Assembly (NCBI GenBank): GCA_009192285.1
Contig: CM018608.1
Location: 1,630,201 to 1,694,200, forward strand
Source of the DNA: Morchella semilibera
Taxonomy: Eukaryota > Ascomycota > Pezizomycetes > Pezizales > Morchellaceae
Length of the DNA stretch: 64,000 bases
Reading direction: 5' to 3'
The translations under genes were made by a program, and so were the position numbers. This document shows positions 29,596 through 37,100 of the stretch, in pieces. Below the pieces are notes generated by a model. The model made no database searches and was not told the origin of the DNA. It saw nothing but the letters and a program-made list of their open reading frames with translations. Within the stretch, counting starts at the first letter, position 1. Every line of letters starts with the position of its first letter.

Positions 29596-31908
29596 CGGCG
29601 TGGTAATAAGTGGTAAAGGAGATAATTTGGTATGCTTGTTGGTGTATGAACAGAATAGTCGTAGGGCACTGTACTGGGTTTTCGGAGGGCTTTATATATT
29701 AATTGGATTGCCCAGATTTTGTGAGCTGGCCTCCCGTGGAAAGGCAGTGCCGGTAAAAAGGCGGTCCTTGATAGCAATCACCGCCTTTTTGCGCAGAGGA
29801 CAATATATGATAATCTAGTACTAGCTGCTATTTTCCCTTCTCTTTTGGAAAGGGCGGTCCTAGCCTATTGGCCGCCTCCTGCTCCAAGAGCAGATGTACG
29901 GTGGTCATGCCCTCATATTTTACGTTTTCTGTTATAAAAGGCGTTTGGGGGTTCGGTCATTGACCGCCCTTTTGTGCAAGGCAGAAAGTGCGGCCCTGAT
30001 CGGCGGTGTCTATATGTAGTTATGCTGGGGAAATAGCGGCCTTGGGCCGTTGCCGCACTCTACCCCGTACACTGTTAAAGCTACCAACTTTAATTTGTCA
30101 AGTCTCTTGTTTCAATTCTGTGGCTTACGCTTGGGGGCCTCCCCTGGGGGGGGGGGGGGTGGTTGCCTGAGGTTATATGTTTCATGATCGATGCAGCACT
30201 TGAGAGTTTATGGGATTGAAGCTAACTTTCATACTGGTATTATCGAATGGGAATCAATTCAGCGGTCGTACTCTAAGTAGCTAGGCGCAGAGTGATTTTG
30301 AGAAGGGGCGCCACAGCTAGCGCTAGCGCCCGGAATCATGTCGAGTGCAAATAATTAACACCAGCTTCAAAACAGTAATACCTATTGAAGCCAACACCAC
30401 CTAGTACCCTATCGGCGCTATGAGCGGTACGTGGGTGATCGTACCTAGGCCGAGAGTCAGCCTGGTGCCGCTCCTTCACGTGCGGAATTTTTCTTCATGT
30501 ACATATGTACGTAGATAAAGGGGTCAGGATGTGATCCTTCCGTATTGCTACCTCCTCTATCATTTACTGACTCGCTGTGGCTTGGAACCGTAGGTCGATC
30601 GATTGAGAGGCTTTTGGCCAGTTAAGTCAGCTCAGTACTGTTTTTACAAATGGTAGTTGGTACCGCGAATGATGGTCCACTCGCCGTGATGGTCCACTTT
30701 CCATTTTTCTCGGCAGCGACATTTGGAGGTGATATTAGTAAAAAGCTAGCCTGATATGTCGAGTGAACCATCACGGCGGTGGACCATCATTCGCGGTATA
30801 GAGTAGATATCGCTATAGTGTGTTGTGCAGCAGCAGTTGCAATTAACCAACTAGATTGATTGCAATTGGTATCGTAAAATACGATACAGTAGGCATAGAG
30901 TGTAGGTACAGTCATATAGAGTATGTAAAGTATGGACATTTATGTCCGGACTGGAATACCTATGATATCAATACTGCTTGTATGTATATACTGATCTTTT
31001 GACATGCATAGATATAGCGTGATTGAGCATGGGGCGGCTCAAACGTCCCCATTATGAGTTGAGCTCATGTGAAGAGTTGATCGGGTTCCCTGCCTGGGCT
31101 CCAGCCTGGGCTCCAGCCTGGTGTGATCCTGCCCTGGTCGTCCTTATCGTTTATCTTATTACTGCCTATTCTAGGATATGTTTGGTGTTAGATAGATCGA
31201 TCTAAAGTATAGCTATATCTATGACGCGCAAAAAAAATGGCGGTTACACCAAAGGGCGCAACAACGAGGGGGAGGTCGAGGAGGAGCTTCTAATTACGGA
31301 CTATCAGTAGGGCTATCGCATGAGAGGGTCCGTTCCGTACCTACCGATAGTCCGTTGCAACAGATGCCCTGGCTTATTCCAGAACTTTTCGAAAGCGACT
31401 GTATTGTTACACGAAAGGGCGCTGCTTTCTTTCGGCCAGGGAGGGCCAGGGAGGGCCAGGGAGGGCATCCAGTCAGTGCCCAACTGAGAGGGGGAAGAAG
31501 ACACGTTTGACGTGGTCTTAATTCTCATACTCACTCACTTAGGTACATGTATCTTGTCCCCACTCCTGAAGTATGTACATACTCTACTCTTAGCATCAAT
31601 ATGCATGAAGCAGTAAGTTGATCAACTGATACTTGGTGTTTTCTGCTCATCTACAACTATAGCTAACCAACCCTCGATATTCCCAAACCCCACCCCCACC
31701 CCTCAACCACCAGCCCACCTACCCTATGGACATTTTACATACCGTCGTTTTCGTAATTAAACTTATCATCTTTCTAGTACATATTAGCCTTATAAATACG
31801 AGAACAACTCCCTACGATTGAAGTTCGGATTAAACCCCAGGCCTCCGGAATATACCGATATTCAAATTTGCAAGGTCGCGTACTCGATTAAACCAGATCA
31901 TACCCAAC
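29596..31908. other. intergenic region, hairpin-rich
   Basis: No gene. From 29740 to 30060 there are several GCGG/CCGC-containing stems (for example AAAAAGGCGGT at about 29755 pairing with ACCGCCTTTTT near 29790). A TIR element lies at 30661-30798. Small tandem repeats occur near 31090-31121 (12-bp unit GCCTGGGCTCCA) and 31434-31466 (10-bp unit GGCCAGGGAG). The last 200 bp, AT-rich with C-rich patches, probably hold the promoter of the Clr5 gene. Confidence 0.6.
30661..30798. mobile_element. MITE-like element, TA-flanked, TIR CCGCGAATGATGGTCCA
   Basis: The left arm starts TACCGCGAATGATGGTCCAC and continues CGCCGTGATGG. The right arm in reverse complement is the same over about 36 bp with one indel and one substitution. 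The word GATGGTCCA is used twice within the left arm. The element is 138 bp including TA at both ends. It is non-coding and about 1.1 kb upstream of the Clr5 gene. Confidence 0.82.
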
Positions 31909-34106
31909 ATGACCCATGGATGGCGGCCAGAGGTGAAGGCTCGGATTATTGAGCTCTATATAGGACAGAATATGCCTCTAAAGGAGGTTATAAAGATTGT
32001 GAACGAGGAGTTTAACATGAATGCAAAGTAATGACGTGAATTCCTTTCCCACCACACTTTACATATAACTACAGCTTTAGATCCTTGATGTATTAGACTG
32101 GGCGCTGACCGTTACCATAATAGATTACGTACCTATCAAAAACGTTTAAAGACGTGGAAAATTACCAAAGAGAGGGTCCATCACGCTCGTCGCGGTGTGC
32201 CCACAAAAGTATGCCCCAGCCATGATCAACAGTATGCATGCTCTACCGCCGGAAACCATTCGCCCTATCAAGGCCCATTGAGTGACTCTGCCCGTGATTG
32301 CAGCAGTTCTTCCGGTAATGATGACCTTGATCGACATAACCGAATGGCTACTCTACTCTCTTCGCAAAACCCGGCTCATACCGATAACCTGGAGTGTTTT
32401 CATGATGACCTTGGGACCATTCCGGGGGTTGAAAGCAGTAGTGCAGGACTGCTTTATGTTGAAAGTTCTAGTAACGAAACAGCGGCTCTAGAATACCTAA
32501 TGCCCGGATTGACGGACCATACTTACTCAGATGGGCATCGGGTAGAGATGGGGGACGGTCCCTTTCCGCAGCAAGCCTCCGTAGGGGGCAGATCTCAAGT
32601 TGGTGACTTGACGGAGGGGAACATAACTATCAATGCCACCCTGCCTACTATTTCAAATCTCTTTTTGAGTGCAAGTATGTCTAACTCTTCCATTAAAGCG
32701 ACACCTGGAACAGCCCTGAGATGTATAAGAGTCTAATGTGATAAAAGATCTAGAGAATCTACTCGATTTATCACCGCTAGCCACCCAAATTGCTTCTGCA
32801 TATATGGAAATCAATGCTATAACCCCATCCTGTTATGCAAAGCTCTGCGATGAAACATTTCATAAGCTACAGAGCGCGGAAGGAGTCTCCCACGATACCG
32901 CGGTACTCGAGATCTCAATATGTAACCTATCAGCCGAAGACCACTATACGTTGCGTTTCTGTTCATTTTTAGGCAGTGCCAATATTACGTTGGAAGAATT
33001 GGATTATTTTATGAAAAAGCCTCGTGAGCGTATGTATCTCCTATGTGATAGGAAAGTGCCAAATATCTATCACTGCGTGTCGAAGTGGTGGTATAATTAC
33101 TAATGACTAGATTATAGTAATCGATAATTCTCTTGGAAGACTGCTACGCTACCGGCTTATTTCACAGCATCTTCAGTACTCGAAGAACATTTCAATTGAT
33201 AGAAGGATCCATGACTGGCTATGGGATCGAATTACCCTCATAGACCGGCCTCCAATCACACGCGAAATGATGATCAGGGTCAGCAATTCCATCAATCTTG
33301 GTTACGCCCCGTCGAAAGAGGTGTGGGAACTTGCAAGGCTATCCATCCCTCATATTAGGAGATGGGCTGGGACCATTTTGGATAACCCAAGCTCCGGATC
33401 TTTTTGGGACAAAGAATCTTTCAAGGCCGCTGTTATTATCGCCAAGGTTGCTAGCAAAGTTGGCAGAAACTTAGAATCTAAAAAGATTCTGGGGCACATC
33501 GTCCCTCTGATGGAGAATATCCTTGATAAGGGAGATCCTTTAACCCTCAGTACCATGAACAACCTATCTGTGACACTCATCAGCAGCCAGAGCTGGATAG
33601 AGGCAGAAGCTATTCTCTGCAGGCTTATAGACATTCTAAAACCAGGCCCCACAAACGAAAGCTCCTATGTTACAGCACTAAGTAACCGAGCACGTGCCTT
33701 AGCCCAACTCAACCGGCAGGAGGAGGCCGAGGAAGTGCTTCAGCTCATTGTTGATCGGGGTAAACACTTGCGGTTCGGGGATTTTGACGAGAAAATGAGA
33801 TATAATACCAAGCTCGCGGAGACGTTTAGGTTTTGTGGTCAGTCAATGAAAGCAGAGGGTCTTCTCTCGTCCATACTCCAAAAAAGTCGGACTATCTTAG
33901 GAGAGAGTCATCCCAGAACTCTCCGCGTACTAGAGCTCTTTTGTTGTGTGTACTCGGATAGAAAGGAATGGGCACTGGCTGAAAACCACAGTTCTAGATT
34001 AGTAACACTCAGTGAGTGCACGCTTGGCGAGACACAAATAGATACAGTTAGAAGAAGGAAATTCCATGAGAAGATGAGCAAAAGAAGGGGTAAACTAAGA
34101 GAATAG
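31909..34106 (+). CDS. Clr5-domain protein with NLR-like C-terminal half and TPRs
   Basis: Four-exon model: 31909-32027, 32124-32674, 32730-33029, 33118-34106 (1959 nt, 652 aa, every junction in phase). Residues 1-55 form a Clr5 domain (WRPEVKARIIELYIGQN ... TYQKRLKTWKITK), a fungal N-terminal domain named after a fission-yeast heterochromatin factor. Residues 60-220 are low complexity. From about 225, the segment LSPLATQIASAYMEIN, then SAEDHYTLRFCSFL, then LGRLLRYRLIS and IHDWLWDRI resembles the region after the nucleotide-binding core in fungal NB-ARC/NACHT proteins (helical and winged-helix parts). The C-terminus carries TPR-like repeats with ILGESHPRTLRVLELF. No P-loop (GxxxxGKT) is present, so this is not a complete NLR. 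Introns 1 and 3 have good GTAATG/GTATGT donors; intron 2 is the least certain. The role is unknown. Confidence 0.7.
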
Positions 34107-37100
34107 AGCAAATACATGTATTTAATAATAAATGATCCATTGCAAGACCGAGTACGATTTACAAATATGACGGTATTGGGCATTTATTGTACTAGATTAA
34201 GATACCTTTATTATTAAACGTAGAACTAGCATTCGAACTTTATAAATTTTCTTTACCGAGGGGCTAGGGAGGCCTGAAAATGTACGCATCTGCTCAACTA
34301 GACCCACCCCTACATGGTAATGCTATATGCATATGAAAATAAGATAAATCCCAATCACCTTTCTAGTTTGCCACAGCCAAAAAACTCCATGAAATTAATG
34401 AATTAAACAAAAAAACCCTTTGTAGTTTATGTTACTGTAATAATTGTGGCAAGGTCTTGACTACTTTTGCATTATGCCGTTGTTGCTTTTTGCCAGGCTA
34501 TTAATTATTGTTATAAAAGGGCTACCAACCCCTCCTATATTAAAAAAGACAAGTCAAGAACTACCTCTGCAAGGGTCTAATATTGCGAGGAGTTTACCAA
34601 ATTGAAGGGACGAGTGATATTCTATGATTTGGGACGTAAATCTAGCTATGAGATATTTTCTTCCTCCTCTATATATAACTCTTTCAGGCACTCCCCGTGC
34701 CCTTTTTATCTGTGTGTATCGGGCGGATTATGCTGAGCACATGGGTTGACTGCTCTGAAGCGACGAGTATTACAGCAGAATCTTATTATAACTTGGTGTC
34801 TTAGGTCTCTGCTAATGAGGCCGGCTACACTCTCCCACAACAAACTGCAGGTATCTCCCTAGGTCATCTGCCGCTTTGATCACTTCGAGCTCGGTTTCCT
34901 TTTTGCCTGATAACGTACTAATCTAGTCCAGGACCGGATCGAGAAAACAAGCACTACTCCTTCTACTTTCTTTGATGCGGGAAAACTCCAAAACTATCAC
35001 CTGCAACTGGCCGTCTACAGAGTTTGAGTTGACGAAGAGATGTCATACCCTAAATATGAGAGTGGCTCTATAGTCGTTATGTTATATCGAAGCTGCAGGG
35101 AAATCTCAGGGCCTAGGGTTAGGGTCATCTATGTAGAAGCCCCGCCTGACACATTTCCATCCCTTATCTATCTGATGATCCGGGCCTTGGCCGTTTATTA
35201 CATGTAGTTAAAGCGCTTAAGTAATTCACATAGGCCAGGAAGAGGTATTCTCGGTAGATCCATGAGTTAGGAGAGTTGAAGACGTCTGAAAATTAACCTG
35301 TACATACATTAATGATTACTACTCTGCTAGAATTAAAATGCCGCTTGCATACATGTATGTACTTGATCCTTTATTAGATTCTCGCCCACTAACGACCCCC
35401 TTGGCACCAGCCTCCTCGATCGGTTGTTGGCAAAACCCGCAACTGATAATTAATTGCCAAATTAGCCCCAACCGGCTTTAAGACCGGGATTAATATAGGG
35501 GGCTTATATTATGTAATTATGCCATGCACCTTCAGTACTTGCAAAGGAAATGCATACATGCTAATGACCCGCTGTGTCTACTTGTACGTGGAGGGATCCA
35601 GTGCAGCTCTAAAATTCACGTAAAGGACATAGTGTGGGGATAGGTGGTCGTTGATTCCCAATTAAATGCATGCTGCTCAAACTATTGTTTAACATCCATT
35701 ATAGAGTTCCTTCGACAGGACCAGGAATTAATTCATGTTTGTTGCTTAGCCTATATATAGCTAGACTATAATTTAAAGAAATCGCGTTTCATATTATATA
35801 TTGCGGTAGGCTAAATAAGGAATTATAAAGCTTGAGAGTAAGTACATAATGTAGGTACCGCATTAATCCGTCTCAGCGGACACTCATATTGACGTTGAAG
35901 TTACTTGTTTTGGTCATTTGTCTTACAAACGCCCCTCTAATCTTGCTGTAAAAGGCAGCTTCGACGACTGTGTAACCGTCCGCTGAGACGAATTACAGCG
36001 GTACTAGACTATACTATATTATATGGACGATTTATATATACCCCTTTTGACGTAAGCTGCATAACCGGTAGCAGTAGAGCAAATACTATTAAAATACACT
36101 ATTGAAGGAAAATGCAAAGCAGAAGTATCGTAGGTTGTTCGGTTTGGCCGCTGTTCAGTGTTTACTGGTGAGAACGATTCATAGTGTTTGTATGTACTTT
36201 ACATTGCGGGGGTTTCTAGTGCAACTTATGTGCAAAGTCCCCTTATCCCTTAGACTACTGGTGAGACTCCCGAATTTACTGGGTTTCAAACCCCAAACAT
36301 GAGGCTTACACACGCGAGGCTTGGAGCAGGAATCAGTAATAACATGATATATCCCCACTGGTGTCTAAGCTACTCAAACTACTATGGTTAGGGTCTTTCA
36401 CTAACTTTCTGAGCTAGAGCTAGCAATATTTCATAAAACAGTCTTGAGTTCGATAAATCATGTCGCTCCTATTCCCGATGTATCGCAATTTTCTGATTCC
36501 TCACAGCTTCAGCTGTATTAATAATGATGGTCAATCTATGTTGTTGAAATCCCGATTGAAAGAATATCAATAAAAGGCAATCTAATCCTCATGGCGCTGC
36601 AAAGAGAATTTTTCTCCGTATTAGTGATTGTTATATGATTGGATCGGGTGTGGGTACCCGGTCACATCCGTTCCCTAAACGGCTGTGCAATTGTGTTTGT
36701 CGTTGGCATTGCTGTCCCGGGCAGCGCTCGGGCTTTACAGCTGCCTTCCCTATGATCGATCGCGAGGCTTCTCCTTTCCGTGTACCAAGACCTAAAATTC
36801 ATAGGATTTGGAAGCACGATGCGTGGCAAATGATAAAACAACTAACTGGTCAAGTTTCCCCGCATTGTTGACTACCCCTAGGCTTGCGGAGGGGTTGCAC
36901 CTCGCCCATATATATAGGGTGTGGGGGGAACCTCACTAGTGGGGGAGAAATTTGGGGGCTGATCGATCATGATTCAAAACCTAGAACTTGATCGTACTTA
37001 TTCTTGTATCTTACAGTTTTTGTGGAAGCGCGCTTCAAAAATCCCTAGTCATCTAAACCTATGAGGGGGAAACCTGTATAGTATGAAGGAAAGGGGCGCT

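Follow-up and report, generated by a model that had tools for sequence, protein, structure and literature searches.

Fungal NB-ARC-TPR NLRs, which combine an NB-ARC domain (PF00931) with a DUF7779 region and TPRs, have an ARC/winged-helix region, W...PHI helices, TPRs and two phase-1 introns in common with a candidate gene of Morchella semilibera that lies in a window of 64,000 nucleotides (the whole stretch of DNA analysed here). These NLRs have an NB core extending from the P-loop to the sensor, whereas the window gene is without one, and its N-terminal domain, Clr5, is not among the eight N-terminal domains that the accessible text of a survey of Sordariales NLRs (PMC12258605) lists as canonical for that order. 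As far as that text goes, the survey started largely from the NB domain, with some NLRs lacking an annotated NB domain added by similarity, and what is available of its main text mentions Clr5 once, for an excluded orthogroup. Because fungal NLR surveys begin largely from the NB domain, NLR tails carried on foreign heads may be overlooked. On the side of the head, proteins with a Clr5 domain (PF14420) share with the window gene the domain itself, a phase-2 intron at the same codon and a repeat tail; several of those encoded in this genome end in ankyrin repeats, whereas the window gene continues into an NLR winged helix and TPRs. Further afield, the post-NB region of the bacterial STAND regulator AfsR gives a weak match to a profile that includes the window protein. 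AfsR has TPRs and a DNA-binding head, and both AfsR and the FxSxx_TPR proteins keep their NTPase core. The FxSxx_TPR family (NF040586, NCBIfam) matches the TPR part of the window protein at 51.6 bits (5.4e-14, the better of two TPR stretches), far below the family cut-off of 300 bits.

Gene model and the Clr5 head

The candidate gene occupies positions 31909-34106 of the forward strand and comprises four exons and three introns that encode 652 aa, with the stop codon at 34104-34106; the coordinates and the open spliced frame given in the preliminary description hold, all three introns having GT-AG borders. The domain order of this 652-aa model is Clr5, a Ser-rich linker, a middle of about 180 aa, and TPRs; its exons, introns and domains, described next, all lie on the forward strand. 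Exon 1 (31909-32027) supplies the start codon and the first part of Clr5 (aa 1-40), and intron 1 (32028-32123, phase 2) splits this domain, which spans 31930-32169. Exon 2 (32124-32674) carries the end of Clr5 and the Ser-rich linker (aa about 56-223), and is followed by intron 2 (32675-32729, phase 1), the proposed site of the Clr5/NLR joint, for which other possible acceptors would start the next exon at 32748, 32754 or 32781. Exon 3 (32730-33029) encodes a GLPLA-type helix, an ARC helical bundle and the beginning of a winged helix, all of the NB-ARC NLR type. Beyond intron 3 (33030-33117, phase 1), which lies at or near the position of the second NLR intron, exon 4 (33118-34106) encodes the rest of the winged helix, the W...PHI bridging helices and a TPR superhelix before the stop, the TPR region (TPR_12, TPR_10) running from 33429 to 34028 (aa about 428-627). 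An alternative acceptor for intron 1, with exon 2 starting at 32097 and a protein 9 residues longer (661 aa), was rejected, the Clr5 match scoring 39.8 bits as against a gap-free 49.3 bits with 32124. The 661-aa model or pieces of it were used for the 39.2-bit profile test, the DUF7779 comparison, the genome search with the tail and the 39.8-bit Clr5 scan, and the 652-aa model for the leave-one-out, nine-NLR profile, NB-core, FxSxx_TPR and 49.3-bit Clr5 tests; the two models are identical from exon 3 onward.

Exon 4 is open over 329 codons, for which P is about 1e-8 (about 7e-5 expected per 64 kb), and the open frame is therefore not a product of chance. The codon-use score of the whole frame is 0.035, as against -0.055 and -0.080 in the other two frames, and exceeds -0.015, the 99% point for random stretches of the window (n=2000; the highest of these scored 0.063). 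Exon 2 taken alone does not stand out in codon use (-0.044 vs -0.042 and -0.094 in the other frames), and a genome search with its Ser-rich linker gave no relative. Among 10 long ORFs of the window that were scanned, four had matches (P450, GMC oxidoreductase, DUF7025 and DUF7514) and the other six gave no domain match. A 138-bp MITE-like element with perfect inverted ends of 20 bp (TACCGCGAATGATGGTCCAC) is present at 30661-30798, 1.1 kb upstream of the gene; this end has eight genome matches at up to one mismatch, two of them in the window element, and a second inward-facing pair of such ends occurs on contig C11 (166618-166751). Also upstream of the gene, at 31434-31466, GGGAGGGCCA-like units are repeated in a short tandem array.

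The Clr5 N-terminus proposed in the preliminary description is supported by a Pfam match over aa 8-55 (49.3 bits, 5.3e-13), above the Pfam cut-off of 22.3. The genome searched (56.8 Mb in 23 contigs) contains 15 Clr5 matches, including that of the window itself and one pair on doubled contigs; the contig pairs C9/C10 and C12/C13 show the same matches at nearly equal coordinates and are likely to be allelic or duplicated contigs in the assembly. Thirteen other Clr5 loci were examined, and six of these (L055, L060, L061, L062, L063 and L065) head transposon-like genes in which an integrase-like core was recognized by eye (VPGPNWVWSI.GHLK...AYSRYI), the remaining seven being gene-like. Ankyrin-like frames, as judged by eye, follow Clr5 in four of the seven gene-like loci (L054, L056, L057 and L059), with Pfam confirming ankyrin in the two of these that were scanned (L054 and L057). 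A phase-2 intron at the codon of the window's intron 1 is found in five of the seven gene-like loci, the other two having given no model; of the transposon-like copies, four of six pass this site in one open frame and two contain stops. Pairwise scores place the window head no nearer to the gene heads (five compared, z 3.6-12.8) than to the transposon heads (three compared, z 9.7-10.7), and only the intron separates the two kinds. Clr5 is common to mobile elements and Clr5-ankyrin genes, and the domain may have a transposase origin. Binding of DNA or chromatin by the head would be expected from the presence of Clr5 on transposon-like genes together with the link between fission-yeast Clr5 and silencing, as reported in the accessible part of PMC7608984.

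The NLR-like middle and the TPR tail

By profile comparison, and not on the basis of the intron slots considered below, the middle of the window protein and the post-NB (ARC/winged-helix) region of the genome's own NB-ARC NLRs are homologous. A profile made from 10 NLR loci, covering the GLPLA helix to the end of the winged helix and leaving the window out, gives the window protein 39.2 bits (6.7 for the best of 5000 shuffles), and a longer profile from nine NLRs gives it 41.8 bits, with decoys at 11.6 or less among 5000 shuffles and 2000 block shuffles. Exon 3 ranks first, at 30.2 bits, among 707 frames from the window and the 13 Clr5 loci, and exon 4 second, at 6.8 bits, the next and unrelated frame scoring 5.7. 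Alignment of the middle with the NLRs by hhalign yields Prob 97.5 and E 7e-12 over 178 columns, at 22% identity. The likeness to a post-NB-ARC helical and winged-helix region that had been noticed from the letters alone is, by the profile tests and hhalign, real homology. When each NLR was left out in turn, all 10 (44-174 bits) outscored the window (39.1 bits), which lies near the most divergent of them, so that the tail must be much diverged; its identity to the NLRs of the genome is about 16-27%. DUF7779, the Pfam model of this region, matches all six local NLR pieces (E 2e-6 to 0.0025, one of the six above the cut-off), whereas the window protein gives no match to it at E up to 10. For the MHD-type His, one alignment sets a D of the window protein against H in eight of nine NLR rows, though an I-H-D four residues on could be the motif.

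Searched against the PDB, a profile that includes the window gives seven matches, weak ones (E 0.0047-0.41), all in the matching region and all to proteins that we take to be STAND ATPases (PH0952, AfsR and NRC2); by sequence, then, the middle did not align to an unrelated fold, the result that the preliminary description had named as telling against its reading. The NLR-only profile finds PH0952, two AfsR sequences and a plant resistance protein, RPP13-like 4, along with two unrelated weak matches, and a fold search with exon 3 alone has no NLR structure among the matches listed. For the end of the protein, the tetratricopeptide repeats proposed from the sequence are confirmed by a Pfam TPR_12 match (1.7e-13) and by a model of exon 4 that is confidently a TPR superhelix (pLDDT 80.9), the first 25 residues, which form the rest of the winged helix, staying below 50. 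The best Foldseek match of this model is to KLC-like TPRs of Podospora anserina (E 7.1e-7). The genome has NB-ARC genes with TPRs; matches of the tail in the genome besides itself are 19-31% identical and all lie within the TPR part, and the genome search gave no close paralogue of the tail or the linker.

The P-loop/Walker switch is absent, as had been claimed. A profile of nine local NB cores found nothing in any frame of 30001-36000, where the best frame scores 0.8 bits as against 75-229 bits for the true cores, each left out (n=9). The spliced window protein does not occur among the 20 matches listed for the NB-core profile, and Pfam NB-ARC or NACHT has no match in it. When the post-NB exon of one NLR was used as query against the genome, 12 places were found, namely the query, ten at eight loci (E up to 0.0012) and one on contig C8 (E 0.8), and an NB core is present at all eight loci, seven of them among the profiled cores and the eighth, L046, with a P-loop frame seen by eye. 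This search did not recover the window gene itself and may therefore have passed over other NB-less tails that are equally old; no NB-less NLR tail besides the window gene was found, but the genome may hold more of them.

Intron positions and the proposed joint

A change of frame before exon 3 forces some intron there. A phase-1 acceptor exactly 14 residues before P-L-A/G occurs in six of the seven NLRs that need an intron at this site (L041, L042, L043, L048, L049 and L052; in L041, where an earlier P-L-A is present, the 14 residues were counted by eye), and an AG stands at the corresponding distance from P-L-A in the window. The seventh NLR, L050, has acceptors solely at 18 or 11 residues, and L040, L044 and L046 are without an intron at that site. 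The slot was chosen among several acceptors, that of the window having been picked before the comparison with the NLRs, and in the window and L052 another acceptor outscores the 14-residue one, which in L041, L048 and L049 is tied with others. Of the 25 phase-1 slots near the window acceptor, 4 contain AG (about 0.16), so agreement in this slot is weak when taken alone and could be due to chance. The second NLR intron is also of phase 1 in the models of L041, L043, L048, L049 and L052, and the donor of intron 3 shares its alignment column with those of L041 and L048, the others lying no more than some codons away. In the L042 NLR, the ARC/winged-helix exon meets a stop before the next exon, and no simple intron bridges this junction. 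The simplest reading of these intron positions is that both parents would have kept their introns and been joined within intron 2.

Origin, role and alternative readings

The sequence comparisons thus make it very probable that the locus is a single gene made of a Clr5 head and an NLR tail without an NB core. We propose that a Clr5 gene gave its two-exon head and an NB-ARC-TPR NLR its last two exons, and that the joint fell in the intron preceding the GLPLA exon, which would have left out the ATP-binding core. In the resulting protein, the Clr5 head would serve as the anchor to DNA or chromatin and the tail of winged helix and TPRs as the binding site of a partner, either that of the parent NLR or a like NLR. 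As there is no nucleotide switch, NLR-style oligomerization would not be expected, and rather than serving as a cell-death switch the protein might be a fixed adaptor through which either a TPR ligand or a sensor NLR is tied to chromatin. A nucleotide-independent TPR adaptor anchored on DNA or chromatin would be its most likely function; the account as a whole, from the two-parent join to the chromatin-anchored adaptor with its mechanism, is offered tentatively, at somewhat less than even confidence.

Compatible with this account, and a possibility to which we give less weight, is that the gene belongs to an old and widespread fungal family of the type Clr5 - winged helix - TPR that is already in protein databases. 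The low identity between the tail and the NLRs, about 16-27%, suggests an old join, and Clr5 heads also stand before ankyrin repeats (at two loci by Pfam and two by eye), so that Clr5 followed by repeats recurs; on the other hand, Clr5 together with tetratricopeptide was not found in the literature searched. The main alternatives are decay and decoy function. A degenerate NLR offshoot that is becoming a pseudogene, in which the fusion would be real and the protein without a role, is unlikely. Such decay would fit the tail and linker having no close paralogue in the genome search, the low score against the gene's own NLR family and the weak codon signature, poorest in exon 2, but 652 codons are open across four exons and three GT-AG introns, the 329 open codons of exon 4 by themselves have a P of about 1e-8, and the TPR fold is confidently predicted. 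Rather improbable, too, is a decoy or dominant-negative role, in which the tail would mimic an NLR surface for a pathogen factor or an NLR and Clr5 would serve only for location or stability: winged-helix and TPR homology to NLRs has been kept while the NTPase is missing, and the accessible text of PMC12258605 considers integrated decoys in connection with fungal NLRs that carry non-canonical domains, but the tail has no close NLR sibling to mimic, the genomic matches being 19-31% identical and confined to the TPR part. Two adjacent genes, one of them a short Clr5 gene whose end would be at 32736, where the frame of exon 2 stops if intron 2 is left unspliced, and the other an NLR-tail gene beginning at a later ATG, are highly improbable. 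There is no intergenic room, the donor of intron 2 reads GTATGT and this intron can be removed with the NLR slot as its acceptor, and with a later ATG the second gene would lack the NLR-aligned helix that precedes P-L-A.

A Clr5 head on a switchless NLR tail is an unusual combination, and the joining of the two parents may have turned part of an immune sensor into a chromatin-bound adaptor. The locus is a worked example in which introns point to both parents, and it suggests the post-NB exon profile, not the NB core, as a way to find more of its kind. Provided that the protein is functional, it would link chromatin regulation with the immune-receptor toolkit. A bolder reading, which we consider improbable, is that the protein is a chromatin-targeted, nucleotide-free NLR descendant, in which exon joining cost the ATPase switch and supplied a chromatin head, and a signal sensed by the TPRs would be linked directly to gene silencing or expression; if true, this would represent a route from NLR to nuclear regulator.
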